A DNA stretch of 64,000 nt from an uncultured Latescibacterota bacterium (GTDB taxonomy: Bacteria; Latescibacterota; UBA2968), in assembly GCA_951812755.1 (NCBI GenBank), contig OX638329.1, positions 853,339-917,338 of the forward strand, in the 5' to 3' direction. Every line of letters starts with the position of its first letter. The first letter of the stretch is position 1. A program made the translations under genes and the position numbers. A model generated the notes under the pieces. It ran no database searches. It saw only the letters and a list, made by a program, of their open reading frames with translations, and had not been told where the DNA came from. Of this stretch, positions 2,141 through 31,718 are shown piece after piece.

Positions 2141-4717
2141 CTATCCAGTGACCGTTTTGCCAAAGGAATCCACAAAGATGAGGAAGTCGGAAATGCCAAT
2201 GGTTCCATTGCCGTCGAGGTCGTATATTGGATCGAAGTTTTCCTGTCCGCTCTGGGTTCCAAACACTTCGACAAATAGCAGAAAGTCTGAGATATCGACC
2301 TGTCCACTGCCATCAAAGTCGGCAGTGGCAAGGGGAGTGTCCGTTACCTCAAAGCGGATGATTTCAGTGAAGTTCACCCGAAGGATATTCCGTGCCTTGT
2401 CCCCTACCGTCATTTGAGCAAGTCCCCAGGTTCCGGGGATACTGCCGACGGGCAAGATGATCGTTTTATAGTAGGTTTCATAGACAGCAGGATCGCGTGT
2501 AAAATAGACTTTGTAAAAATCCGAATCGTAATGTCTAAAGAAGTGCATTACACCATTGGGGTCGCGTAAATACATGCTTGTCAAACGATATCCACTGATG
2601 TTGTCCTTAACTCTAAAGCTAATATCGACCTGTGTTTCGCCATTTGGTTCTTTCGGATTGGTCGGTTCTGCCTCAATAGTGATCTGGTTCAAATCAAGCA
2701 CGGGTGGGGTATCGTCCGGGTTTGGTGTTTGAACGTCAATAGTGACGGGTGCTTCATCTATTACGACATCTTCGTTTTTTAATCCATACCCTGGATCGGT
2801 GAAATACACGCCTCGCCGGTTTCGCGCAATATCCTGCATAAAAAGGTAGTTGATTTCGTACCTCCCGTGTGAGAAGTAATCCGGGATTATAAGGTCAACT
2901 TTCGCTTCCCCAGTCTGCGGATCATATTTCCCCTGGTCCTCCGAGTGTCGAGAATAGGTTTCGGCATTTGCATCGTTTAGCTGTGCAAAGATTGTTTTTA
3001 CACCGATTTCTTCAAAAATCCTCCAGCGTGCGGTGAGAATTTGCACGGATTTGCCTTCTGCCGTGCTTTGTGACAATGAGAGTTGCATTGTATCTTTGAC
3101 ATAAGCTGGCGGTTCATAATCGGCAAGCGGGTTGTTGAGATAGAGCTTCCATCCGAAATCGACTTGAGATTCGTGGCGTTCATTGCCCTGGGCATCCCTT
3201 AGGCTAATTTGATCTGGGCCCCAATAACCGTACGCTGCGTGTTTTGATAGTGTCTTGTGCCCTCGCAAAACGTGGCCTGCATTGATGTGCTGTCCATCAG
3301 AGCTTACAGGATAAAGCCAGAGGTCAAAGGAGGTGCCTTTTGTGCTGTGAATTTTCAGGTTTGATGCCTGGGCAGTGTCAAAGTCATTTTCCCGGTGAAG
3401 CTCAAGCTCTATTGTTATGTCCTTATCCTCTTCTGGTTCACCCACAACCTGTATGTCAACCCGTATGATCCGACCGGGATACACCACATCGGGATACAGA
3501 TTATAGACCTGAAATGTCAGGTCTTCGCGTATCCGAGATATGTAGCGCGTGCCGTGCATGATTCTATCTCGAATAAATTCGTATTTGGCAGGGGAACGAG
3601 AGCGCAATTTGTCGGGATCCACGATATAATAACTGATCGTTTCTGCCATGTCCTCATTCGGATTTCTCTGGTGTGCATAAGCGGATACAAACTCGACCTG
3701 TTTGGTCGTTGACCAGCCATCTTTGTCGTCCGGGTTTACATACCAGCCGCCGAGTTCAATCCAGTCCTGTTTGAGCTGGTCGTCAAAGAGATGTTCCCAT
3801 AAGAAGTGCGCTTTTTCATGGAGAATTAAGCGGTGGATGTAGTCGAGGCCCTGTCCCTTAAAAGCGGATTCCATGAACTCAATATAGCCCGAGGTCGTCC
3901 AGGCTACAGCAGGAGCAGTAGGATAAAGTGGATGGGGTGTTCCGTCCAGTCGCCGCACCAGATATTGCAGGCCTGGCGTCGTGAGCATGCCCTGTGGGTA
4001 TTCTTCAAACATACTCACGAGAGTTATCAATTCTTCGTTTTTAAACTCTCCGAAACGGCCTGCCTGTTCCTTCGTTGTTCTTCGTGTCAATTCGGTATAG
4101 TCCGGCACATCTAAACTCACGCCGTAACGTTTTTCTAATATCTGCTTCAGCGCATCTCTGTCTCTGCCATCGTCGGTTACATAGCGAACGACGGCATGAT
4201 GTAGTCTTTTGGAGAAGAAACGACCTCTCACACCCTCTATTTCTGCCAGCAATGGGTCGGCATAAGTAAAAACCTCCCGGGACAGGGTGACGATTTTTTG
4301 TCCGTCCTGGATACGGATCTCTATGTCATTTTGAATATGCTGGTCTGTCAATTGCCATAATGAGGATGATACTTCGGGCGTTTCATCGGAAAAGTTGTTT
4401 CTCTCTTGTGGGATGGACTCAAAGGTCTGGAGCAGTCGGTAAGCATGTCCGTCACTCCATTCGGTGCCGAGTAATACCGAATAGTGTTGCATGAGACGCA
4501 GTGATGAGCTATGCGGCACGACCTGTATCGGCTCATCTAAGAACATGACCTGCACGGGTTGGACGAGGGTTGCCGATTCTACCCCTTCGTAGGTCTGATC
4601 GGTTTTCCATTGATAGGCGAATTGGGCAAAAGCAGGTCCGCTGAAGATGAGTGTCAGCAGGAGGATCATGTTCAGGGACGCAAATTTAGAGATGAGGTGA
4701 GATGTTTTGAGGGTCAT
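2141..4717 (-). CDS. secreted HExxH metalloprotease-like protein with C-terminal dockerin/EF-hand-like repeats, copy 1
   Basis: Product of 858 residues. A signal peptide is clear: basic N-terminus, a hydrophobic stretch at about residues 17-28 and a probable cut after AFA (29-31). Residues 300-304 read HEKAH, a zincin HExxH site, and about 50 residues later NEDMAE (354-359) supplies a plausible third, glutamate, zinc ligand, as in gluzincin-type peptidases such as the lethal-factor-like group. From about 400 to 790 follow beta-rich modules. The last 60 residues hold two calcium-loop repeats (DFDGSGQVDISDF and DLDGNGTIGISDF) spaced like a type I dockerin pair. ATG at 4717 is chosen over the longer frame because AAGGA lies 7 bases upstream and the signal peptide begins there. 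It is the leftmost of three tandem paralogues, mostly near-identical by eye. Protease activity is inferred, not shown. Confidence 0.8.
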   Translation of the reverse strand: MTLKTSHLISKFASLNMILLLTLIFSGPAFAQFAYQWKTDQTYEGVESATLVQPVQVMFLDEPIQVVPHSSSLRLMQHYSVLLGTEWSDGHAYRLLQTFESIPQERNNFSDETPEVSSSLWQLTDQHIQNDIEIRIQDGQKIVTLSREVFTYADPLLAEIEGVRGRFFSKRLHHAVVRYVTDDGRDRDALKQILEKRYGVSLDVPDYTELTRRTTKEQAGRFGEFKNEELITLVSMFEEYPQGMLTTPGLQYLVRRLDGTPHPLYPTAPAVAWTTSGYIEFMESAFKGQGLDYIHRLILHEKAHFLWEHLFDDQLKQDWIELGGWYVNPDDKDGWSTTKQVEFVSAYAHQRNPNEDMAETISYYIVDPDKLRSRSPAKYEFIRDRIMHGTRYISRIREDLTFQVYNLYPDVVYPGRIIRVDIQVVGEPEEDKDITIELELHRENDFDTAQASNLKIHSTKGTSFDLWLYPVSSDGQHINAGHVLRGHKTLSKHAAYGYWGPDQISLRDAQGNERHESQVDFGWKLYLNNPLADYEPPAYVKDTMQLSLSQSTAEGKSVQILTARWRIFEEIGVKTIFAQLNDANAETYSRHSEDQGKYDPQTGEAKVDLIIPDYFSHGRYEINYLFMQDIARNRRGVYFTDPGYGLKNEDVVIDEAPVTIDVQTPNPDDTPPVLDLNQITIEAEPTNPKEPNGETQVDISFRVKDNISGYRLTSMYLRDPNGVMHFFRHYDSDFYKVYFTRDPAVYETYYKTIILPVGSIPGTWGLAQMTVGDKARNILRVNFTEIIRFEVTDTPLATADFDGSGQVDISDFLLFVEVFGTQSGQENFDPIYDLDGNGTIGISDFLIFVDSFGKTVTG

Positions 4718-5915: not shown

Positions 5916-8495
5916 CTATCCAGTGACCGTTTTGCCAAAGGAATCCACAAAGATGAGGAAGTCGGAAATGTCAATGGTTCCATTGCCGTCGAGGTCGTAT
6001 TTTGAATCGAAGTTTTCCTGTCCACTCTGGGTTCCAAACACTTCGACAAAAAGTAAAAAGTCTGCAATATCGACCTGTCCACTACCATCAAAGTCGGCAG
6101 AGGTAAGGGGGGTCCCTTCTACCTCAAAGCGGATGATTTCAGTGAAGTTTGCCCGAAGGAGGTTATATGCTTTATCAAATACTTTCATTTCAGCAAGTCC
6201 CCATGTTCCGGGAATACTGCCAACGGGCAAGATGACCGTTTCATAATGTGTTTCATAGACAGTGGGATCGCGTGTAAAATAGACTTTTTCAAAATCCGAA
6301 TCGTAATGTCTAAAGTGGTGCATCACACCATTGGGATCGCGTAAATACAGGTCTGTCGAACGATATCCACTGATGTTGTCCTTGATTCTAAAGGTAATAT
6401 CGATCTTTGTTTCGCCATTTGGTGCTTCTGGATTGGTGGGTTCTGCCTGTATGGTAATCTGATTCAAGTCGAGCACGGGTGGGGTGTCATCCGGATTTGT
6501 CGTTTGAACGTCAATAGTGGCAGGTGCTTCATCGATTATTACCTCTTCATCTCTTAATCCATGTCCCGGATCGGTAAAGTACACGCCCCGCGCGTTTAAC
6601 GCGCTATCCTGCATCTTGATGAATTGGAGTTTGTACGTGCCATTCTGGAAGTAATCCGGAATCACAAGTTCAACACTCGCTTTATCGGTCTGCGGATCAT
6701 AATTTCCATGTCCCGTTGAGCGACGAGAGTATGTTTCAGCATTTGCATCGTTTAGTTGTGCATAGACTTCCCGTACATTGAATTCTTCAAAAAGCCGCCA
6801 ACGTGCGGTGAGAATTTGCAGGGACCTGCCTTCTGCCGTGCTCTGTGACAATGAGAGTTGCATTGAATTGTTGACGTAGGCAGGCGGTTCATAATCGGCA
6901 AGCGGATTGTTGAGATAGAGTTTCCATCCGAAATCGACCTGAGATTCGTGACGTTCATTGCCCTGGGCATCCTTGAGGGTAATTTGATCTGGTCCCCAAT
7001 AACCGTACGCTGCGTGTTTTGATAGTGTCTTGTGCCCTCGCAAAACGTGGCCTGCATTGATGCGCCTGCCATCGGAGCTTACAGGAGAAAGCCAGATGTC
7101 AAAGAAGGTGCCTTTTGTGCTGTGAATTCTCAGGTGTGATGCCTGGGCAGTGTCAAAGTCATTTTCCCGGTGAAGCTCAAGCTCTATTGTTATGTCCTTA
7201 TCCTCTTCTGGTTCACCCACAACCTGTATGTCAACCCGGATGATTCGTCCGGGATACACGACATCGGGATACAGATTATAGACCTGAAATGTCAGGTCTT
7301 CGCGTATCCGAGATATATATCTCGTGCCGTGCATGATTCGATCTCGAATAAATTCGTATTTGGCAGGAGAACGCGAGCGCAACTTGTCGGGATTCACGAT
7401 GTAATAACTGATCGTTTCTGCCATGTCTTCATTCGGGTTTTTAGCGTGTGCATAAGCAGATACAAACTCGACCTGTTTGGTCGTTGACCAGCCATCTCCA
7501 TCGTCCGGGTTTACATACCAGCCGCCGAGTTCAATCCAGTCCTGTTTGAGTTGGTCGTCAAAGAGATGTTCCCATAAGAAGTGTGCTTTTTCATGGAGAA
7601 TTAAGCGGTGGATGTAGTCGAGGCCCTGTCCCTTAAACGCAGATTCCATGAACTCAATATAGCCCGAGCGAGTCCAGGCTATAGCAGGAGCCTGCGGATT
7701 AATCGGGTGGGGTGTTCCATCTAATCGCCGCACCAGATATTGCAGGCCTGGCGTCGTGAGCATGCCCTGTGGGTATTCTTCAAGCATACTCACAAGAGTT
7801 ATCAATTCTTCATTTTTGAATTCTCCGAACCGGCCTGCATGTTCTCCCGTGGTGTTTCGCGTGAGTTCGGTATAGTCCGGCACATCTATGCTTACGCCGT
7901 AGCGGTTCTCCAAAATTCGCTTGAGAGCATCTCTGTCTCTGCCACCATCGGTTACATAGCGAACTATGGCATGGTGGAGTTTTTTGGAGAAGAAACGGCC
8001 TCTCACGCCCTCTATTTCAGCCAGCAATGGGTCGGCATAGGTGAAGGCTTCCCGGGACAGGGTGACGATTTTCTGTCCGTCCTGAATACGGATCTCGATG
8101 TCATTTTGGATATGCTGGTCTGTCAATTGCCATAACGAAGATGGCACTTCGAGTGTCTCTTTGTACGGGTCGTTACTCAATTGTGGGATGGATTCAAAGG
8201 TCTGGAGCAGTCGGTAAGCCTGACCATCACTCCATTCGGTGCCGAGTAATACGGAATATTGTTGCATGAGGCGCAGTGATGCGCTGTGGGGTACAACCTG
8301 TATCGGCTCATCTAAGAATATGACCTGCACGGGTTGCACGAGGATTGCCGATTCTGTTCCTTCGTAGGTTGTATCGGTTTTCCAGGTATAGGTGTATTGT
8401 GCAAGAGCGTGTCCGCTGAAGATGAGTGTCAGCAGGAGGATCATGCTGCTCAGGTAGGCAAATTTGGAGATGCGTTGAGATGTTTTTGCTGCCAT
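5916..8495 (-). CDS. secreted HExxH metalloprotease-like protein with dockerin-like repeats, copy 2
   Basis: Paralogue of the 2.1-4.7 kb gene, 859 residues, with the same order: signal peptide (cut probably after ALA near residue 32), HEKAH near residue 301, NEDMAE about 50 residues on, beta modules, and a terminal pair of calcium loops (DFDGSGQVDIADF and DLDGNGTIDISDF). By eye residues 130-470 differ from copy 1 at only scattered positions, while the stretch after about 600 and the N-terminus differ more. ATG 8495 is preferred over TTG 8513 because AAAGGA lies just upstream and the signal peptide starts there. Catalytic and zinc-ligand positions are intact, so this is not an obvious pseudogene. 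It converges with higA across a shared terminator. Confidence 0.8.
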   Translation of the reverse strand: MAAKTSQRISKFAYLSSMILLLTLIFSGHALAQYTYTWKTDTTYEGTESAILVQPVQVIFLDEPIQVVPHSASLRLMQQYSVLLGTEWSDGQAYRLLQTFESIPQLSNDPYKETLEVPSSLWQLTDQHIQNDIEIRIQDGQKIVTLSREAFTYADPLLAEIEGVRGRFFSKKLHHAIVRYVTDGGRDRDALKRILENRYGVSIDVPDYTELTRNTTGEHAGRFGEFKNEELITLVSMLEEYPQGMLTTPGLQYLVRRLDGTPHPINPQAPAIAWTRSGYIEFMESAFKGQGLDYIHRLILHEKAHFLWEHLFDDQLKQDWIELGGWYVNPDDGDGWSTTKQVEFVSAYAHAKNPNEDMAETISYYIVNPDKLRSRSPAKYEFIRDRIMHGTRYISRIREDLTFQVYNLYPDVVYPGRIIRVDIQVVGEPEEDKDITIELELHRENDFDTAQASHLRIHSTKGTFFDIWLSPVSSDGRRINAGHVLRGHKTLSKHAAYGYWGPDQITLKDAQGNERHESQVDFGWKLYLNNPLADYEPPAYVNNSMQLSLSQSTAEGRSLQILTARWRLFEEFNVREVYAQLNDANAETYSRRSTGHGNYDPQTDKASVELVIPDYFQNGTYKLQFIKMQDSALNARGVYFTDPGHGLRDEEVIIDEAPATIDVQTTNPDDTPPVLDLNQITIQAEPTNPEAPNGETKIDITFRIKDNISGYRSTDLYLRDPNGVMHHFRHYDSDFEKVYFTRDPTVYETHYETVILPVGSIPGTWGLAEMKVFDKAYNLLRANFTEIIRFEVEGTPLTSADFDGSGQVDIADFLLFVEVFGTQSGQENFDSKYDLDGNGTIDISDFLIFVDSFGKTVTG

Positions 8496-10043: not shown

Positions 10044-12620
10044 CTATCCACTGACTATTTTGCCAAAAGAATCCACAAAGATGAGGAAGTCGGAAAAGTC
10101 AACCACCCCATTGCTGTCCAGGTCGAATTTTGGATCGAAATTCTCCTGTCCGCTCTGGGTTCCAAACGCATCAACAAAAAACAAAAAGTCTTCGAATGCG
10201 ACCCGCCCATCGCCATCAAAGTCGGCAGAGATAAGAGGCGCATCAGTTACCTCAAAGCGGAGGATCTCAGTAAAGTTCGCCCGCAGGAGGTTATATGCTT
10301 TATCAAATACTTTCATTTCAGCGATTCCCCATGTTCCGGGGATGCTGCCGACGGGCAAGATGATCGTTTTATGGTAGGTTTGATAGACAGCAGGATCGCG
10401 TGTAAAATAGACTTTGTGATAATCCGGATCGAGATGCCTAAAGTAGTGCCGTACACCATTGGGGTCGCGTAAATACATTTCTGTCAAACTATATCCACTG
10501 ATGTCGTCCTTGACTTTAAATTCGATATCGACCCGGGTTTCTCCGTTTGGTGCTTCTGGATTGATCGGCTCTGCCTGAATGGTGATCTGATTCAAATCGA
10601 GCACGGGTAGAGTGTCATCCGGATTTGTCGTTTGAACGTCAATGGCGGCAGGTGTTTCATCTATTACGACATCTTCAATCCTTAACCCGTGTCCTGGATC
10701 GGTAAAGTACACGCCTTGTGCGTTTAACGCCATATCACGCATCTTGACATAGTTAACGATATATGTGCCATTCTGGAAGTAATCCGGAATTTTAAGTTGA
10801 ACACTCGCTTCACCGGTTTGTGGATTATAACTTCCATACTCCTGTGCACGACGAGAATAGGTTTCGGCATTCGCATCGTTTAGTTGTGCATAGAGTTTTC
10901 TTACACCGAATTCTTCAAAAAGCCGCCAACGTGCGGTGAGGATTTGCACGAGCCTGCCTTCTGCCGTGCCTTGTGACAATGAGAGTTGCATTGAATTTTT
11001 GACGTAAGCAGGTGGTGTATCATCTGCAAGCGGATTGTTGACGTAGAGTTTCCATCCGAAATCGACCTGGGATTCGTGGCGTTCATTGCCCTGGGCATCT
11101 CTGAGGCTAATTTGATCTGGTCCCCAGTAGCCATGTGCCGCGCGCTTTGATAGTGTGTAGTGCCCTCGCAAAATGTGACTTTCATTGACGCGCTGTCCAT
11201 TGGCATCTACAGGAAAAAGCTTGAGATAAAAAAACGTACCTTTTGAGTTGAAGATCCGGATATCTGTTGTTTGTGCTGTTTCGAAGCTATTATCCCGGTG
11301 AATTTCAAGCTCTACTGTTATCACCTTATCCTCTTCCGGTTCGCCCTCAACCTGTATGTCAACCCGTATGATCCGTCCGGGATACACCACATCGGGATAC
11401 AGATTATAGACCTGAAATGTCAGGTCTTCGCGTATCCGAGATATGTAGCGGGTGCCGTGCATGACTCGATCCCGGATAAATTCGTATTTGGCAGGGGAAC
11501 GCGAGCGCAACTTGTTGGGATCCACGATGTAATAGCTGATCGTTTCTGCCATATCCTCATTCGGGTTCTTACCGTGTGCATAAGCGGATACAAACTCGAC
11601 CTGTTTGGTCGTTGACCAGCCATCGTCGTCGTCCGGGTTTTCATACCAGCCGCCGAGTTCAATCCAGTCCTGTTTGAGCTGGTCGTCAAAGAGATGTTCC
11701 CATAAGAAGTGTGCTTTTTCATGGAGTATCAGGCGTTGGATGTAGCCGTAGTCTGTTCCCTTAAAAGCTCTTTCCATGAATTCAATATAGCCCTCGGTCG
11801 TCCATGCTATAGCAGGTGCAGTTGGTTTAAGTGGATTGGGTGTTCCATCTAATCGCCGCACCAGATATTGCAGGCCCGGCGTGCTGTGCAGGCCCTGTGG
11901 GTATTCTTCAAGCATACTCACAAGAGCCATCAATTCTTCGTTTTTGAACTCTCCAAAACGACCTGCATGTTCCTTTGTTGTTCTTTGCGTAAGTACGGTA
12001 TAGTCCGGCACATCTATACTTACGCCGTAACGTTTTTCTAAAATCTGCTTCAATGCGCGTCTGTCCCTGCCGTCGTCGGTTACATAGCGAACAACGGCAT
12101 GGTGGAGTCTTTTGGAGAAAAAACGGCCTCTCATACCCTCTATTTCTGCCAGCAATGGATCGGCATAAGTAAAAGCCTCTCGAGATAAGGTGACGATCTT
12201 CTGTCCGTCATGGATGCGAATTTCTATGTCATTTTGAATATGCTGGTCTGTCAATTGCCATAACGAGGATGATACTCTGGGCGTTTTATCGGAAAAGTAG
12301 TTTCTCAATTGCGGGATAGAATCAAAGGTCTGGAGCAGTCGGTAAGCCTGACCGTCACTCCATTCGGTTCCGAGTAATACCGAGTATTCTTGCATGAGAC
12401 GCAGCGATGAGCTGTGGGGTACAACCCGTATTGGCTGTTGTAAGAACATGACCTGCACGGGTTGCACGAGGGTTGCCGATTCTGTCCCTTCGTAGGTGGT
12501 GTCGGTTTTCCATTGATAGGTGAATTGTGCAACAGCATGTCCGCTGAATATGAGTGTCAGCAGGAGGATCATGTTCAGGGACGCAAATCTCAAGATGCGG
12601 TGATTTGTTTTTTGTGCCAT
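10044..12620 (-). CDS. secreted HExxH metalloprotease-like protein with dockerin-like repeats, copy 3
   Basis: Third paralogue, 858 residues, same architecture: signal peptide ending near AVA-Q (residue 31), HEKAH near residue 300 (context TDYGYIQRLIL), NEDMAE, beta modules, and terminal calcium loops (DFDGDGRVAFEDF and DLDSNGVVDFSDF). The mid region (about 440-560) and the dockerin-like tail are the most diverged of the three, while the 350-430 segment is almost unchanged. ATG 12620 follows AAGGGG at good spacing; the longer frame would place lysines and arginines before the signal peptide. All predicted zinc ligands are kept. Transcribed from its own promoter after the secDF terminator. Confidence 0.8.
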   Translation of the reverse strand: MAQKTNHRILRFASLNMILLLTLIFSGHAVAQFTYQWKTDTTYEGTESATLVQPVQVMFLQQPIRVVPHSSSLRLMQEYSVLLGTEWSDGQAYRLLQTFDSIPQLRNYFSDKTPRVSSSLWQLTDQHIQNDIEIRIHDGQKIVTLSREAFTYADPLLAEIEGMRGRFFSKRLHHAVVRYVTDDGRDRRALKQILEKRYGVSIDVPDYTVLTQRTTKEHAGRFGEFKNEELMALVSMLEEYPQGLHSTPGLQYLVRRLDGTPNPLKPTAPAIAWTTEGYIEFMERAFKGTDYGYIQRLILHEKAHFLWEHLFDDQLKQDWIELGGWYENPDDDDGWSTTKQVEFVSAYAHGKNPNEDMAETISYYIVDPNKLRSRSPAKYEFIRDRVMHGTRYISRIREDLTFQVYNLYPDVVYPGRIIRVDIQVEGEPEEDKVITVELEIHRDNSFETAQTTDIRIFNSKGTFFYLKLFPVDANGQRVNESHILRGHYTLSKRAAHGYWGPDQISLRDAQGNERHESQVDFGWKLYVNNPLADDTPPAYVKNSMQLSLSQGTAEGRLVQILTARWRLFEEFGVRKLYAQLNDANAETYSRRAQEYGSYNPQTGEASVQLKIPDYFQNGTYIVNYVKMRDMALNAQGVYFTDPGHGLRIEDVVIDETPAAIDVQTTNPDDTLPVLDLNQITIQAEPINPEAPNGETRVDIEFKVKDDISGYSLTEMYLRDPNGVRHYFRHLDPDYHKVYFTRDPAVYQTYHKTIILPVGSIPGTWGIAEMKVFDKAYNLLRANFTEILRFEVTDAPLISADFDGDGRVAFEDFLFFVDAFGTQSGQENFDPKFDLDSNGVVDFSDFLIFVDSFGKIVSG

Positions 12621-24506: not shown

Positions 24507-24869
24507 TCAAACCTCTTCACCGGTCAGTACATCGTTTATAGCGGTTTTAAGTTTTGATAGGTCCGATGACTTGACCACATAAGCATTGGCCGACCAGGTG
24601 AGATAATTGTCTTTGTGATTGCTATAAGCGGTGTTGAGAATAACGGGTAACTGGTTGTTTATGCCCAGAATGTGGTTGAGGGCTTCAATGCCGTCCATGC
24701 CGGGCATTCGGATGTCGAGTATTAAGAGGTCCGGTGGGTTTTCTTTGACGCGCTCGATCGCGGTTTGCGCGTCGTGAACCACATCGACGCGATATCCTTC
24801 ATCGGTGAGTTCTTGTTCGTAGAGGAGTGCCAGATTTTGATCGTCGTCGGCGATGAGGATATTTTTCAT
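24507..24869 (-). CDS. single-domain (CheY-like) response regulator
   Basis: 120-residue receiver domain only: acidic pocket D8-D9, phospho-acceptor D52 in LLILDIRMPGMDG and the conserved lysine K100 in YVVKSSDL. No output domain, so it must act by protein contact or as a phosphorelay intermediate. Its ATG overlaps the kinase stop (ATGA), which makes the kinase its likely partner. Confidence 0.92.
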   Translation of the reverse strand: MKNILIADDDQNLALLYEQELTDEGYRVDVVHDAQTAIERVKENPPDLLILDIRMPGMDGIEALNHILGINNQLPVILNTAYSNHKDNYLTWSANAYVVKSSDLSKLKTAINDVLTGEEV

Positions 24870-26533
24870 AATGGTCTCCTTGAGGAGAGATCGGGCAGAT
24901 GGATGAAAATGGAGGCGCCAGAATCGCTGTGGCTTGCGAATGAGAGGGTTCCCTCGTGGCGTTCGACGATTTGTTTGCTGATGACCAATCCGAGACCCGT
25001 ACCGGTGGTTTTGGTGGTGAAATAGGGCTTGAAAATTTCGTCCTGGATTTCGGCGGGAATCCCCGGTCCCGTATCTCGTATTTCAATTTCGATATGTGGT
25101 TGATTCTCTTTTTTTCGAATATGGACGTGCAATTTGCCGCCGTTGGGCATTGCTTGAAATGCGTTTTTGAAGATATTGATGAGTACCTGCTTAAATTGTG
25201 CGGGATCTACGGGTGTTTCGGGCAGGTCAGATGGTGCGTTTTGTCGATAGGCGATGCCCCGGTCCTCAAGGCCCTCGCCAACTTGATGATAGACATCGGT
25301 GATGAGGTCCGGGAGATTGACGGGTTCGAGTTCGAGTTCGCGCGGTCGCGTGTAGTTGAGGATGTCGGTCAGGAGTTCTTCCAGGCGCGTGACTTCACAA
25401 GATATGATGCGCGCTGCCGTGTCGATGCGGTCGGGCGTTGGGGCGCGCTGAAGAGAGCGCGCAAAGCCGCCAATTGTCGCGAGTGGATTGCGAATCTCGT
25501 GTGCAATGCGCGCAGACATTTCGCCGATTACAGATAGGCGTTCCGATTGCACGAGTTCGTCCTGGAGTTCTCGCGTTTCCTGGAAGAGATGCGCGTTGTG
25601 GATGACCCATGCCAGTTGATCGGTCAAGACCGTCAGCGATTGCACATCGGTCCAATTAAAGCCATTTTTTTTGCGACTGAGCACATCGAGTGCGCCCAAT
25701 ACGCGGTCTGCTGTTTTGATCGGTACACAGAGTTCTGCGCGCGTGTTTTTTTCTTGTGGAAAGGCAATGATGCGCCTGGGGTCATTGCCCACGTCATTGG
25801 CCATGATGGGATTGCCAGACGCGACGACATGGCCTACGATGCCTTCGCCCACATTTTGGCGATATCCCTCGGGGAAGTGCTTTTCGTAAACACCGGCTCT
25901 GGCTTTCATGATCATCTGGTTAGAATGCGTTTCGACAAAATAAAGCGAGACATGCTGGTAATTGAAACTCTGCTGCACTTCGTGAACAATGCGCCTGAAA
26001 ATTTCATCTGGATCGAGGGTTGATAGAGCCATTTGTGCAATGCGATTGTTGGTGGTCAGGTGCGCGGCACGCTGTTTTTCCACTGCGAGGAGGCGGGCGA
26101 TTTCGATATTGCGCTGGCGCAGGTTTTGAGATTGGCTTTGCGCCAGGTTTCGATAACGCATTTCGTGGTAGTACGCCGATATGCGCAGCAAGATTTCGTC
26201 AAATATGGCTTCGGCATTGTGCGTAAAATTTTTCAGGCGTTTCAGGACTGTTTTCTTTAGGGCAATGAGCAATCGACAAGCTGCATCGGGGGAAAAAGCA
26301 TTGATTTCACCTGAAAAGATGCGCTGGCGGAGCAGGTGATATTCCTGTTTGGTGGTGATTTGTGTGACTATTAGATCGAAGAACTCTTCGAGTACGTCGT
26401 CGGGCGCGTGGCCGTCAAAATCTTCGCGCAGTTGCAAGACAGATGTATGGCGAACTCGCCTTTGCCATTCAGATAGCAGGCTTGCGCGTTGTGTGGTGAG
26501 CACATGATAGAGGTTTTGTTCTGTGTTTTTCAT
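24866..26533 (-). CDS. GAF-domain sensor histidine kinase
   Basis: Soluble-looking kinase of 555 residues without membrane helices. Order: N-terminal helical domain (1-125) resembling RsbRD/RsbR N-terminal sensors (LLSEWQRRV), coiled coil (125-160), GAF domain (165-315), dimerisation/phosphotransfer with H345 in HEIRNPLATIGG, and HATPase with NIFKNAFQAM (N box), DTGPGIP (G1) and FTTKTTGTGLGL. Probably senses a cytosolic ligand or redox state through GAF. First gene of the kinase-regulator-glgC-glnD operon and divergent from a PAS kinase. Confidence 0.92.
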   Translation of the reverse strand: MKNTEQNLYHVLTTQRASLLSEWQRRVRHTSVLQLREDFDGHAPDDVLEEFFDLIVTQITTKQEYHLLRQRIFSGEINAFSPDAACRLLIALKKTVLKRLKNFTHNAEAIFDEILLRISAYYHEMRYRNLAQSQSQNLRQRNIEIARLLAVEKQRAAHLTTNNRIAQMALSTLDPDEIFRRIVHEVQQSFNYQHVSLYFVETHSNQMIMKARAGVYEKHFPEGYRQNVGEGIVGHVVASGNPIMANDVGNDPRRIIAFPQEKNTRAELCVPIKTADRVLGALDVLSRKKNGFNWTDVQSLTVLTDQLAWVIHNAHLFQETRELQDELVQSERLSVIGEMSARIAHEIRNPLATIGGFARSLQRAPTPDRIDTAARIISCEVTRLEELLTDILNYTRPRELELEPVNLPDLITDVYHQVGEGLEDRGIAYRQNAPSDLPETPVDPAQFKQVLINIFKNAFQAMPNGGKLHVHIRKKENQPHIEIEIRDTGPGIPAEIQDEIFKPYFTTKTTGTGLGLVISKQIVERHEGTLSFASHSDSGASIFIHLPDLSSRRPL

Positions 26534-26568: not shown

Positions 26569-26598
26569 ATAATATCACGCCAAATGTATAAGTGTCAA
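26569..26598 (-). promoter_or_regulatory. promoter of the kinase-regulator-glgC-glnD operon
   Basis: Minus strand TTGACA (26593-26598), 18-base spacer, TATTAT (26569-26574), about 35 bases before the kinase start. No equally good plus-strand promoter is visible in this 145-base divergent spacer. Confidence 0.65.
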
Positions 26599-26678
26599 GA
26601 TATTTGGGCTTGCGCTTTGGGTCAAAATATGGAAAATTAACGTTAGATGTCTTTTATAGTTGTATCGGGAGAACGCGC

Positions 26679-27734
26679 ATGGCTACGGATTATAGTGCTT
26701 CAATTCTGGAGGGGCTGGGGGAGGGTATCGTGGCTTTTGATAAGACACATCGGGCTGTGATGGCCAATGGACATCTGATTGCATTGATGGGGTGGGACAA
26801 ACAGGCTGTTTGTGGCGCGTCGCCAGAGGTGCTATTTGCCCAACGCCCCGAGTTGTTGCGGATTTTGAACGAGGGTATGAAAAACAAGGTGCTGGTGTCG
26901 GACATAGATCTGGTACACCACAATGCCGATGGTGGATTGCAACATCTGCGCGTGAGCACGTCGTTTTTGGATGCGGATACGCGGTGCGGACTGGTGCTGG
27001 CGGTGCGCGATGTGTCTGAGATAAAGCGGATGGAGTGGGAGATCTTTCAAGTTGAAAAAATGACGGCGTTGGGGCGTTTGGCCGCTTCAGTTGCCCATGA
27101 GGTGCGCAATCCTCTGGGGGCGATTGATATTCAATTGCAGTTGTTGGAAGAAGACCTCGACGAGTTGGCAAGTGCGTTAAAAGAGCGTCTTGTGGGGCGG
27201 CTCAATATTGCGCAGACAGAGATGAAGCGGCTCGATCGCCTTGTACATAATTTTTTGCGTTTTTCGCGCACGCCCAAACTCCATTTGCGGCAGGTGTCTC
27301 TCAACGATGTGGTTCGCCACGTTTTTGAGCTGGTCTCGCCCGAAGCACGCGAGCGCGCGGTTGTGTTGCGTCTGGAACTTTCCGACGGTCTGCCCGCGAT
27401 CAATGGAGATGAAGATCAACTCGGTCAAGCTGTGCTCAATATTGTGGTGAATGCCTTTCAGTCTATGGCCGCCGGTGGCGATTTGATTGCTCGAACACAA
27501 ACGGAGTCGGGGCAGGTGTGTTTGATGCTTACAGATACGGGATGCGGGATTCCCGAAGAAGAAGTGGATCGCATTTTCGAGTTTTATTATACGACCAAAG
27601 ATGAGGGTACCGGGTTGGGGCTATCTATTGCCCAGCGCATCATTTATCAGCACGGTGGACACATTGACGTTGAGAGCCGTCCCGAATGGGGAACGACCTT
27701 CCGGGTGTATTTGCCCGAGCATGAGATAAAATAA
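26679..27734 (+). CDS. PAS-domain sensor histidine kinase, NtrB-like
   Basis: Cytosolic kinase of 351 residues: N-terminal PAS domain (about 1-118), HisKA with H140 in VAHEVRNPLGAID, and HATPase with NIVVNAFQSM, DTGCGIP and FYYTTKDEGTGLGL. The arrangement and size match NtrB/AtoS-type kinases. ATG 26679 follows GGGAGA; the longer frame upstream has no domain content. 90 bases before an NtrC-type activator gene on the same strand, its likely partner. Confidence 0.92.
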   Translation: MATDYSASILEGLGEGIVAFDKTHRAVMANGHLIALMGWDKQAVCGASPEVLFAQRPELLRILNEGMKNKVLVSDIDLVHHNADGGLQHLRVSTSFLDADTRCGLVLAVRDVSEIKRMEWEIFQVEKMTALGRLAASVAHEVRNPLGAIDIQLQLLEEDLDELASALKERLVGRLNIAQTEMKRLDRLVHNFLRFSRTPKLHLRQVSLNDVVRHVFELVSPEARERAVVLRLELSDGLPAINGDEDQLGQAVLNIVVNAFQSMAAGGDLIARTQTESGQVCLMLTDTGCGIPEEEVDRIFEFYYTTKDEGTGLGLSIAQRIIYQHGGHIDVESRPEWGTTFRVYLPEHEIK

Positions 27735-27824: not shown

Positions 27825-29183
27825 ATGGACGCGAGTGAGATTCGGATTTTAATTGCAGATGATGAGTACTATATCTGCGAAGGTCTGCGAGAGGCGATGG
27901 CCAAAGACGGTTATCGGGTTGATGTGGCTTATGATGGGAATCAGGCAAAAATACTGATGGAAGCCCATGAGTACGATGCCGCGATTTTTGATCTCAAGAT
28001 GCCGGGGCAGGATGGTCTATCACTTTTGAAGTGGGTGAGTGGTGCAAATCGCGAAATTGGCGTTATTGTGATTACGGCTTATGGCGAGGTGGAGACGGCT
28101 GTTGAAGCCATGCGGCGGGGGGCTTATGATTATTTGACCAAGCCGGTAGATCTGAAGCGATTGCGCCTGTCCTTAGAGCGATTGCTCGATCACCAGGCAC
28201 TGGTGGCGGAGAACCGCGTATTGCGGGCGCGTCTGGATTCCAATGGGGAAAATGGGGATATTGTGCATCGAAGTGCTGCGATGGAACACGTTTGTGATAC
28301 TGTAGCGCAGGCGGCAATGACCGATGTGCCGGTTTTGATTACTGGAGAAACGGGTACGGGGAAAGAACTCGTGGCGCGTGCGATTCATCAGGCGAGTGCG
28401 CGGCGGAATGCGCCCCTATTGGCGATGAACTGCGGGGCGTTTGCCGAGACATTATTTGGCAGTGAGTTGTTCGGTTATGTAAAAGGGGCGTTTACGGGGG
28501 CGACAGTGGATAAGGCGGGGTTTTTTGCGGCGGCTGAAGGCGGGACGCTCTTTTTTGATGAAGTGGGTGAAATCCCCTTGCCCAATCAAGTCGATTTGCT
28601 CCGGGTATTAGAAGAAAGAGCCTATCGACCAGTGGGCAGTACCAAAGCGGTGGCCGCAGATGTGCGAACCATTTTTGTCACCAATCGTGATCTCGAGCGA
28701 GAAGTGGCAGAAGGGCGATTTAGAGAAGATTTGTATTATCGCATCAATGTGGTGCCCATTCGCCTGCCACCGCTTCGCGAGCGCGTCGAAGATATTCCGC
28801 TTTTGATCGATGTGTTTTTTGACAATTTGTGTGTGTTGCACCACAAACCGCGCAAGGAATTAACGCCCGATGCGATGGATAGGGTTCTGGCTTATTTATG
28901 GCCCGGCAATGTGCGCGAGTTAAAAAATACTATTGAGCGTATTGTGGTAACCTGTGCAGATCAAAAGGTCGAGGTCGATCATTTGCCTTCTCGGGTGCGC
29001 GATGCCCAGAATGCAACAGATACGATAATGGTCGAACTCGGTTCGTCGCTTGAAGACGTAGAGCGCGCGCTTATCGAAAAAACACTTGCACATGTGACGG
29101 CAAATCGCAAAAAGGCCGCAGCTTTGCTGGGGATCAGTGTTCGCGCGTTGCAATACAAGATCAAGGCGTATAATTTGCGCTAA
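27825..29183 (+). CDS. NtrC-family sigma-54-dependent response regulator
   Basis: Bacterial enhancer-binding protein of 452 residues. Receiver domain with D56 in AAIFDLKMPG; AAA+ domain with Walker A GETGTGKE (174-181), the sigma-54 contact loop GAFTGA (221-226) and Walker B-like GGTLFFDEVGEI; C-terminal Fis-type HTH (about 425-450, RKKAAALLGISVRALQYKIK). ATG 27825 has GAGG upstream. Downstream lie a sigma-54 promoter and two palindromes in phase, so the next gene is its probable target. Sigma-54 itself is not in the window. Confidence 0.95.
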   Translation: MDASEIRILIADDEYYICEGLREAMAKDGYRVDVAYDGNQAKILMEAHEYDAAIFDLKMPGQDGLSLLKWVSGANREIGVIVITAYGEVETAVEAMRRGAYDYLTKPVDLKRLRLSLERLLDHQALVAENRVLRARLDSNGENGDIVHRSAAMEHVCDTVAQAAMTDVPVLITGETGTGKELVARAIHQASARRNAPLLAMNCGAFAETLFGSELFGYVKGAFTGATVDKAGFFAAAEGGTLFFDEVGEIPLPNQVDLLRVLEERAYRPVGSTKAVAADVRTIFVTNRDLEREVAEGRFREDLYYRINVVPIRLPPLRERVEDIPLLIDVFFDNLCVLHHKPRKELTPDAMDRVLAYLWPGNVRELKNTIERIVVTCADQKVEVDHLPSRVRDAQNATDTIMVELGSSLEDVERALIEKTLAHVTANRKKAAALLGISVRALQYKIKAYNLR

Positions 29184-29192
29184 TTTCCCAAA

Positions 29193-29237
29193 GCGCAATT
29201 TTTGCATTTTGGTTATAGATGGGGTGCAATTTTTGCA
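29193..29237 (+). promoter_or_regulatory. two palindromic upstream activator sites
   Basis: GCAATTTTTGC (29195-29205, extending to GCA) and TGCAATTTTTGCA (29225-29237) are two copies of a TGCAA-N3-TTGCA inverted repeat with centres 31 bases apart, about three helical turns. They lie about 120 and 150 bases before the predicted sigma-54 transcription start, the usual range for enhancer-binding proteins. Confidence 0.7.
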
Positions 29238-29325
29238 TACTAAATGAAAGAAAAAAGAACATGCAGATCGAATTTTATGATTTTTGTTCAATATAAACAA
29301 TAATTTATGAGTACGGGAAATTTTT

Positions 29326-29341
29326 TGGCACGGATATTGCT
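29326..29341 (+). promoter_or_regulatory. sigma-54 promoter
   Basis: TGGCAC-GGATA-TTGCT, with GG (29327-29328) and GC (29339-29340) exactly ten bases apart, matches the -24/-12 consensus at every key base. It points to the PTS IIA gene with a leader of about 135 bases. The remaining 29184-29489 spacer contains the two upstream palindromes and one downstream palindrome, and nothing coding. Confidence 0.88.
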
Positions 29342-29453
29342 GTTATATTAGGGTGCGTTTATCGCGGTTTTTGATGTTGGAGATTAACCTTATGTTTTTA
29401 TTGATGTTAATGTGTTATTCTCCTTTTCTAATAAATGTCTTATAGTTTGAAGG

Positions 29454-29466
29454 TGCAAATTCTGCA
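29454..29466 (+). promoter_or_regulatory. third TGCA-N5-TGCA palindrome, in the leader
   Basis: TGCAAATTCTGCA keeps the outer TGCA...TGCA of the two upstream sites but lies downstream of the sigma-54 promoter, just before the IIA start. It could be a repressor or feedback site for the same regulator. Confidence 0.45.
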
Positions 29467-29489
29467 TTTTTGTCGCGTGGGGGGGTCAG

Positions 29490-29993
29490 GTGAATCAAAC
29501 GACAATTTTACCGGAAGACGATGTTTTTCATTTTGATGTTTCGCTTCTTGTACCCGAGTTGCAATCCCAGGATCGCATGGGAGCGATCAAAGAACTGGTT
29601 GATCGGCTCTATGGGCGCAGGAAGGTGGTCGATAGTCTGAAGTTTTTGCAAACTATTCTGGATCGCGAAGATCAGATGAGTACTGTTTTGGGCCGGGGTG
29701 TTGCATTGCCCCATGCGCGGTGTCGTTCGGTTGCTCAGCCCGGTGTGGCATTGGGTATTTCTCAGACGGGTATTGCTTTTCCCCCAGATGCAGAACCCGT
29801 TCACATGATCTGCATGGTTGCAGTACCCGATGTGGCTCCTGTGCCTTATCTGTCGGTTTTGAGCAATTTGGCCCTGTTGTTTAAAAATTCAGATGTGCGA
29901 GCGGGTTTGATGGCCTGCGACACATCGATGAGTATGTATCAATTTATGACGGAACATCTCGCGCAAATTCGCAAGGTGTCGTCTCCCCTATAA
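29490..29993 (+). CDS. PTS IIA type-2 domain protein (PtsN/EIIA-Ntr-like)
   Basis: Stand-alone IIA domain of 167 residues with the phospho-accepting histidine H75 in RGVALPHARC and the following conserved segment GVALGISQTGIAF. Single IIA-2 proteins of this type are regulatory phosphocarriers, as in the nitrogen PTS, rather than sugar transporters. GTG 29490 follows a G-rich ribosome site. Expression from a sigma-54 promoter next to an NtrC-type gene fits the nitrogen-PTS idea; no HPr, EI or transporter components are nearby. Confidence 0.88.
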   Translation: MNQTTILPEDDVFHFDVSLLVPELQSQDRMGAIKELVDRLYGRRKVVDSLKFLQTILDREDQMSTVLGRGVALPHARCRSVAQPGVALGISQTGIAFPPDAEPVHMICMVAVPDVAPVPYLSVLSNLALLFKNSDVRAGLMACDTSMSMYQFMTEHLAQIRKVSSPL

Positions 29994-30000
29994 TGCGAAT

Positions 30001-30060
30001 TAAAAATTAAAAATTAAGAATTAGAAATTAAAACCTGAGCTGAACCGTCTCTAATTCTCA
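30001..30060 (+). other. AT-rich spacer with inverted repeat before the sigma factor
   Basis: Contains serial AAAATTA-type repeats and a 9-bp perfect inverted repeat AGAATTAGA (30017-30025) / TCTAATTCT (30050-30058). It could be a weak terminator for the IIA gene or an operator for the sigma gene; it lacks a clear T-run. Confidence 0.4.
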
Positions 30061-30115
30061 ATTGGTATTTTATAGCATATATATTAGCTCCCCATCCTTT
30101 TACAGGAGGTTCCCC

Positions 30116-30967
30116 TTGCCTGGAATTATGATTCAAGATAGTGAGTCTCTGGATTTGTATCTGCGAGACATTGCCTCGTCTGAACCCCTTTCGAGTGCGG
30201 AAGAGATTGACCTGGCAAAAAAGATTCATAAAGGTTGCCAGAGATCCAGAGATAAACTGGTTTCTGCCAATCTCCGTTTTGTGGTGAGTGTGGCGCGCGA
30301 ATATCAAAATCACGGGGTGCCTCTGGCCGACTTGATCAGCGCGGGCAATATGGGCCTGATGACGGCTGCCGAGCGCTTTGATGGCACGCGGGGCTTTAAG
30401 TTTATTTCCTATGCTGTCTGGTGGATCCGCCAGGCGATTCACCAGAGTCTGGCACAGGATTCGCGGGTTGTGCGGTTGCCTATTAACCGCATTGATTTGT
30501 TGCACAATATTTCAAAGGTGTCGCGCGAACTGAGGCAGTCAAGCGAGACCGAACCCGAACCGGAAACTGTGGCAAAAGAACTCGGCGTGTCGGTGGAGAT
30601 GGTTCAGGATACGTTGATGCGCGCACGCGATGTCTGGTCTCTGGATGCGTCTTTCCGCGAGGAGGATGACCACAGTTTGCTGCATGTGTTGCCGGACAAG
30701 ACGCAAAAGGCACCCGATGAGGAAGTTGTAGAAGATTCGGTGCGCGAACAGGTGAGAGATGTGCTCACATCTCTGGATGACCGCGAGACCGAGGTTTTGC
30801 GCCTGTATTTTGGTCTGGGCGGTGAGGAGCCGCTTACGCTTGAAGAGATCGGCGTTCGGTTCAATTTGACCCGAGAGCGCGTGCGGCAGATTAAGGAGAA
30901 AGCGCTTCGCAGATTGCGCCATCCGCGTCGTCGCTCGCGGCTTGAGCCGTTGCTGGAAGTGACTTGA
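30116..30967 (+). CDS. sigma-70 family RNA polymerase sigma factor (group 1/2, short N-terminus)
   Basis: 283 residues with regions 1.2 (SLDLYLRDI), 2 (LRFVVSVAREYQNHG...DLISAGNMGLMTAAERFD, then FISYAVWWIRQAI), 3 and 4 (LTLEEIGVRFNLTRERVRQIKEKAL). Region 1.1 is missing, so it may be either a lean primary sigma or a group 2 stress sigma. Start: TTG 30116 is six bases after GGAGG and fits better than ATG 30128, which would be 18 bases away; the longer frame from 30062 runs through the ribosome site. Confidence 0.9.
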   Translation: MPGIMIQDSESLDLYLRDIASSEPLSSAEEIDLAKKIHKGCQRSRDKLVSANLRFVVSVAREYQNHGVPLADLISAGNMGLMTAAERFDGTRGFKFISYAVWWIRQAIHQSLAQDSRVVRLPINRIDLLHNISKVSRELRQSSETEPEPETVAKELGVSVEMVQDTLMRARDVWSLDASFREEDDHSLLHVLPDKTQKAPDEEVVEDSVREQVRDVLTSLDDRETEVLRLYFGLGGEEPLTLEEIGVRFNLTRERVRQIKEKALRRLRHPRRRSRLEPLLEVT

Positions 30968-31181: not shown

Positions 31182-31211
31182 TCAGTGCATTTAATTTGCA
31201 TGGAGGTCGAA

Positions 31212-31718
31212 ATGAAACGCCTGATGATATTCCTCCTGTCTGTGTTCGCAATGCAGGGATGTAGTGATCGTCTGTCAGATATGCAAACACAATTGGCGGG
31301 TACCTGGGTTTTGCAAAGTCGCGAATTGCAAGATGGTACTGTGTTGAGTGGCCCGCATATAAAAGGGTCGCTTTTGTGGGAGCCGATCAGTTCTCGAAAA
31401 GCACATGTTACGCTCAATCTTCTCGAAGATTTAAAAGATGGTACGCCCCGGCGATTTAATTATGCTGCCAGTACGTATGAAATTTCTACGTCGGCGATTA
31501 CGCGAGCCAGGCATGTGCTGGTTCGCCAGGGGTATCGCTCTTCTGCCGAATCACCGATGTCGATTTATCCCAAAGGCAAAAGTGTGAAGGGCAAAATTAC
31601 GGTTGAGGGCGATAAAATTGAGATTGCACACGATGAGCAGCAGTGGGTTTTTGAAGGCAATACGATGACGGCATCTTATGAGGGGGCATGGGTTGATACA
31701 TGGATGCGGATTCAGTAG
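31212..31718 (+). CDS. small lipoprotein of unknown function
   Basis: 168 residues beginning with a lipoprotein signal: MKRLMIFLLSVFAMQGC, with the lipid-accepting cysteine at 17. The mature part starts with a segment (LAGTWVLQSREL...) resembling lipocalin-like beta-barrel proteins, but the match is too weak to name a family. ATG 31212 has GGAGG five bases upstream. A monocistronic unit with its own promoter and terminator. Confidence 0.8.
   Translation: MKRLMIFLLSVFAMQGCSDRLSDMQTQLAGTWVLQSRELQDGTVLSGPHIKGSLLWEPISSRKAHVTLNLLEDLKDGTPRRFNYAASTYEISTSAITRARHVLVRQGYRSSAESPMSIYPKGKSVKGKITVEGDKIEIAHDEQQWVFEGNTMTASYEGAWVDTWMRIQ

Follow-up and report, generated by a model that had tools for sequence, protein, structure and literature searches.

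What does a sigma-54 switch control when it stands directly before the gene for a PTS IIA protein in an uncultured bacterium of the Latescibacterota? The locus lies in a window of 64,000 nucleotides (the whole stretch of DNA analyzed here), where the switch follows genes for a histidine kinase and an NtrC-type activator. Two questions arise: which gene does the switch serve, and does the adjoining activator work through the palindromes found there?

The regulatory region and adjoining genes

The promoter is a sigma-54 -24/-12 element (TGGCACGGATATTGCT, 29326-29341, plus strand), with the GG at 29327-29328 and the GC at 29339-29340. This spacing is canonical and the element is a textbook one; an earlier, sequence-only reading had called the promoter perfect. 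Given the position of the -12 GC, a predicted transcription start near 29352 on the plus strand, about 12 nt after that GC, is reasonable. Two palindromes lie upstream, at 29194-29206 (CGCAATTTTTGCA) and 29225-29237 (TGCAATTTTTGCA), the second beginning 101 bp upstream of the -24 element. They are 31 bp apart, which is about three helical turns. They had been read as two phased copies of TGCAA-N3-TTGCA; both sites are present at that distance, but one is exact and the other is a near copy with one mismatch. A third palindrome is present in the leader, as had been claimed (TGCAAATTCTGCA, 29454-29466), 23 nt upstream of the start codon of the IIA gene; it too departs from TGCAA-N3-TTGCA by one mismatch. 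Thus, only the middle palindrome of the three is exact. None of these palindromes is assigned a strand.

Upstream of the switch, on the plus strand, is a gene for a sensor histidine kinase (26592-27734), probably the first gene of the module, with Pfam matches to HATPase_c (3.1e-26), HisKA (3.5e-12) and PAS_4 (5.2e-5). Orthologs of this kinase are encoded upstream of the activator at all loci with enough flanking sequence. The response regulator that follows (27825-29183, plus strand) is a sigma-54 activator with a receiver domain, an AAA+ domain that includes GAFTGA in the translation (Sigma54_activat, 2.4e-66) and a Fis-type HTH (HTH_8, 1e-11); its identification as NtrC-type therefore holds. 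The best NCBIfam match is AtoC (NF008469), at 427.7 bits versus a cut-off of 714, and the score against the NtrC equivalog TIGR01818 is also below the cut-off (385.8 vs 558.6 bits). A single Sigma54_DBD match, indicating rpoN, was identified in each of the five genomes checked. Also present, divergently oriented beside the kinase-activator pair and near glnD, are genes for a second GAF-domain histidine kinase and a single-domain response regulator (24507-26533, minus strand).

The first gene after the promoter (29490-29993, plus strand) encodes a PTS EIIA type 2 protein of 167 aa, with the phospho-acceptor His in the sequence GVALPHAR. The domain is PTS_EIIA_2 (PF00359; E = 3.4e-28, 98.9 bits vs a cut-off of 27). 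The score against the PtsN equivalog TIGR01419 is well below its cut-off (38.6 vs 138.7 bits), so the label "PtsN-like" is loose. PHAR with the phospho-acceptor His occurs in 33/33 of the IIA proteins from the class. Genes for EI and HPr are adjacent in the genome from which the window comes, and one of each is encoded in each of the five genomes checked.

Next is a gene for an RpoD/RpoS-type alternative sigma-70 factor that starts at 30116 (TTG) or 30128 (ATG) and ends at 30967 (plus strand). The TTG start is preceded by GGAGG. Pfam identifies sigma-70 regions 1.2, 2, 3 and 4, and the score against the RpoS equivalog TIGR02394 is below the cut-off (263.4 vs 378.7 bits). The gap between the IIA and sigma genes (29994-30115) has AATTAAAA-like repeats in an AT-rich run. 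A simple scan of 29180-30140, which cannot exclude either element, found no terminator or sigma-70 promoter. After the sigma gene, the window has an ORF of 177 aa (31185-31718) that recurs in many loci of the same genus and has no match in Pfam or NCBIfam.

Rarity and conservation of the arrangement

The palindrome alone is not rare; the rarity lies in the arrangement. Allowing one mismatch, there are five matches in the window where 2.9 are expected, which is within the range of shuffled sequence. Two of the near-matches in the window are identical (TGCACGGGTTGCA, 8326-8338 and 12454-12466) and about 4.1 kb apart, possibly as parts of one repeated stretch. Statements about whole genomes rest on pattern searches. 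The 6.53 Mb genome contains 18 exact TGCAA-N3-TTGCA sites, one of them at this locus. The other 17 each overlap an ORF of at least 118 aa, and a search within 400 bp of them found no full sigma-54 element. We also rejected glnA as a target of the switch, as no exact or one-mismatch palindrome occurs near this gene within the window. Five genomes were searched for the double-site pattern (two palindromes, then TGGC-N8-TGC at 75-105 bp), and each has it at exactly one place. We rejected a regulon beyond the module's own operon on the basis of this result and of the 17 other exact sites.

The comparison drew on 47 genomes of one class within the Latescibacterota, in which the region was readable at 41 loci and the upstream sequence at 40. 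These 41 loci are not independent, yet they cover three families, and the identity of IIA falls as low as 39%. All 41 have the -24/-12 element and at least one leader palindrome. An upstream palindrome starts either 100-102 or 111-114 bp before the TGGC in 40/40 loci, two distances that differ by about one helical turn. With the loose core [TC]GCA-N5-TGC[AG], an upstream palindrome at an allowed spacing is found in 40/40 regions versus 0.0035 per dinucleotide-shuffled region (0.35%), and a leader palindrome in 40/40 versus 0.0325 (3.25%). The number of sites differs among families: there are two upstream and one leader site in families f1 and f2, and one upstream and two leader sites in most of f4. 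One genome (G020) has two tandem copies of the promoter, with the upstream palindrome 113 bp from the first copy. By eye, transposase-like ORF fragments separate the activator gene from the switch at one locus (L037 of genome G008, 3242-4534), where the regulatory sites stayed beside the IIA and sigma genes.

The target of the switch

The IIA and sigma genes likely form an operon, judging from gene order and spacing. At every locus with an IIA gene and a contig that reaches far enough, the sigma gene comes immediately after IIA; the gap is 1-60 nt at most loci and up to about 200 nt at a few. In the window the gap is at least 122 nt and exceeds that of most sister species by about 80-90 bp.

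No IIA gene was detected in eight of the genomes (G027, G034, G037, G040, G041, G042, G044 and G046), where the switch is directly before the sigma gene. The IIA gene is dispensable, as it is absent from these switch-bearing genomes, and because the switch is retained before the sigma gene in all eight, the constant target is probably the alternative sigma factor. Thus, of the chain that had been read from the sequence, the kinase, activator and sigma-54 promoter stand, but the chain appears to end at the sigma gene and not at the IIA gene.

It could instead be argued that the switch serves mainly the IIA gene and that the sigma gene is a mere neighbor with its own promoter. The IIA gene is the first after the promoter at 33/41 loci, and the long gap in the window, at more than 120 nt, would leave room for such an arrangement. 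We consider this improbable in view of the loci with the switch and no IIA gene, the gap of 60 nt or less at most other loci, and the stronger conservation of the sigma gene, for example 80% versus 47% for IIA in G011.

Several sigma paralogs are encoded in the genome, and the operon sigma is distinct from the likely primary clade. The primary sigma factor is likely the short-branched group with G000:192293, an assignment made by branch lengths and not by function. In the sigma tree there is moderate support (87/74) for a grouping of the operon sigmas apart from a duplicated pair. The sigmas of the three IIA-less genomes that were included nest among IIA-bearing relatives, so it is simpler to assume that IIA was lost. 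A second sigma copy of the operon type was identified in two genomes (G037:C1:2269175 and G046:C1:4739576, loci L079 and L080), with no activator, IIA or glnA gene beside it in the stretches read.

Proposed pairing of activator and palindromes

The sequence-only reading had proposed that the palindrome is specific to this regulator, and the distribution of the two across the class agrees. The palindromes occur in class members with an ortholog of the activator (at least 47% identity in switch-bearing genomes) and are missing from the five that have none (G012, G019, G021, G023 and G038; best full-length activator match 43%). The recognition helix is nearly invariant: its sequence is S[VL]R[AST]L[QH]YK in 39/39 of the orthologs read, and it differs in the listed paralogs. 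This co-occurrence of helix and switch, seen at the level of sequence, is the best evidence here for pairing the activator with the palindrome. Relatives from the same phylum outside the class have activators at 39-51% identity; at the six such activator loci read, the recognition helices are different, and there is no adjoining IIA or sigma gene.

A different regulator, either a repressor or a co-regulator, might bind the palindromes while the activator functions independently of enhancers. The leader palindromes are operator-like in position, and there is a precedent in Borrelia, where Rrp2 reportedly activates rpoS independently of enhancers (Blevins 2009, in the reference list of PMC11109971). 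Such a division of labor seems unlikely to us: the upstream palindrome is found at either of two spacings that differ by about one helical turn, the motif co-occurs with an activator ortholog whose recognition helix is conserved, and no other DNA-binding gene was seen to be consistently linked. The adjoining activator is the more probable partner of the palindromes.

The leader palindrome

Across loci the leader palindrome lies anywhere from 66 to 284 bp from the promoter. By eye, helical phasing with the upstream palindromes looked promising, and it was rejected because the signal did not reach significance (R about 0.3 at 10.5 bp). We would guess that the activator uses the palindrome as a brake or for looping, and we rate an extra enhancer as about equally likely. 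A role in the RNA, where the palindrome would form a hairpin close to the ribosome site, is improbable: a predicted hairpin does cover the palindrome in the window, but the upstream DNA sites have the same consensus, the whole leader shows no better folding than shuffled sequences (z -0.69), and in the IIA-less loci the palindrome is about 130 nt from the start codon.

Proposed mechanism

We suggest, with a probability of roughly 0.8, that the switch region controls a cascade of sigma factors, which leads from a kinase and an NtrC-type activator, via sigma-54, to an alternative sigma-70 factor, usually with IIA in between. The PAS histidine kinase would phosphorylate the activator, which would bind the TGCAA-N3-TTGCA palindromes about 100-113 bp upstream of the -24/-12 promoter and open the sigma-54 polymerase complex using ATP. 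The resulting transcript would carry both the PTS IIA gene and the alternative sigma-70-family gene, and the sigma factor would then redirect polymerase to its own regulon. The same activator probably also acts on the operon through the leader palindrome or palindromes, in a feedback that works either as a brake or by looping.

The IIA protein, phosphorylated by EI and HPr, would most likely tune how active or how stable the sigma factor is. We draw this connection because of the gene order and because of a precedent in Azotobacter, where unphosphorylated EIIA-Ntr promotes degradation of RpoS by ClpAP (PMC12923157). Together these suggest a second, post-translational layer of control, exerted via IIA on the sigma factor. 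The fullest version of the scheme, in which one operon encodes the sigma factor along with the PTS phospho-protein that gates it, with feedback in the leader and the cascade operating class-wide, is tentative, and we would sooner expect some part of it to fail than the whole to hold. If true, transcriptional control by a two-component system and metabolic control by PTS phosphorylation converge on a single sigma factor.

Comparison with known systems

In Borrelia, rpoS is under sigma-54 control in the Rrp2-RpoN-RpoS pathway (PMC11109971). There, as proposed here, an NtrC-type activator and sigma-54 act on a gene for an alternative sigma factor of the sigma-70 family. The two systems differ in that a PTS IIA gene is usually part of the operon in the bacteria studied here, and the kinase and activator genes adjoin their target. 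To our knowledge, hk2-rrp2 of Borrelia is not adjacent to rpoS. In addition, the class has conserved palindromes at fixed spacing, whereas Rrp2 is said to be enhancer-independent. Conserved putative enhancers and a linked PTS IIA gene thus set the locus apart from the Borrelia cascade.

AtoS-AtoC of Escherichia coli provides the best NCBIfam matches of the kinase and activator, both below cut-off. The AtoC sites (GCTATGCAGAAATTTGCACA and GCTATGCAGAAAATTGCGCA) are two in number and upstream of the promoter (PMC3118216), as are the two upstream sites here, and TGC half-sites are common to both. However, the spacer between TGCA half-sites is 6 bp in the AtoC sites and 5 bp here, and the E. coli target is an operon for short-chain fatty acids rather than a sigma factor. 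The NtrB-NtrC/glnA system likewise has a kinase, an activator, paired upstream sites and a -24/-12 promoter, but its palindrome is different and the activator here scores below the cut-off of the NtrC model. In the window glnA is nearby, but no exact or one-mismatch palindrome was found close to it.

In Azotobacter vinelandii, a PTS IIA protein (PtsN, or EIIA-Ntr) acts on an RpoS-type sigma factor (PMC12923157, PMC4314083). In the Latescibacterota locus the IIA and sigma genes are neighbors behind one promoter and an interaction of their products is our proposal, and this IIA is well below the cut-off of the PtsN model.

Almost all papers describing a cascade from sigma-54 to a sigma factor, in the literature searched, concern Borrelia, and the search found no paper joining Latescibacteria and sigma-54. 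The genomes described here point to the same cascade logic in an uncultured class, with an enhancer arrangement that is conserved across about 40 species. With one target per genome where searched, the switch is an unusually clean case for the study of enhancer spacing and of site recognition by an activator. The recurrent pairing of IIA and sigma genes also opens to direct testing a connection that has had little explanation, that of PTS phosphorylation with stress-type sigma factors.
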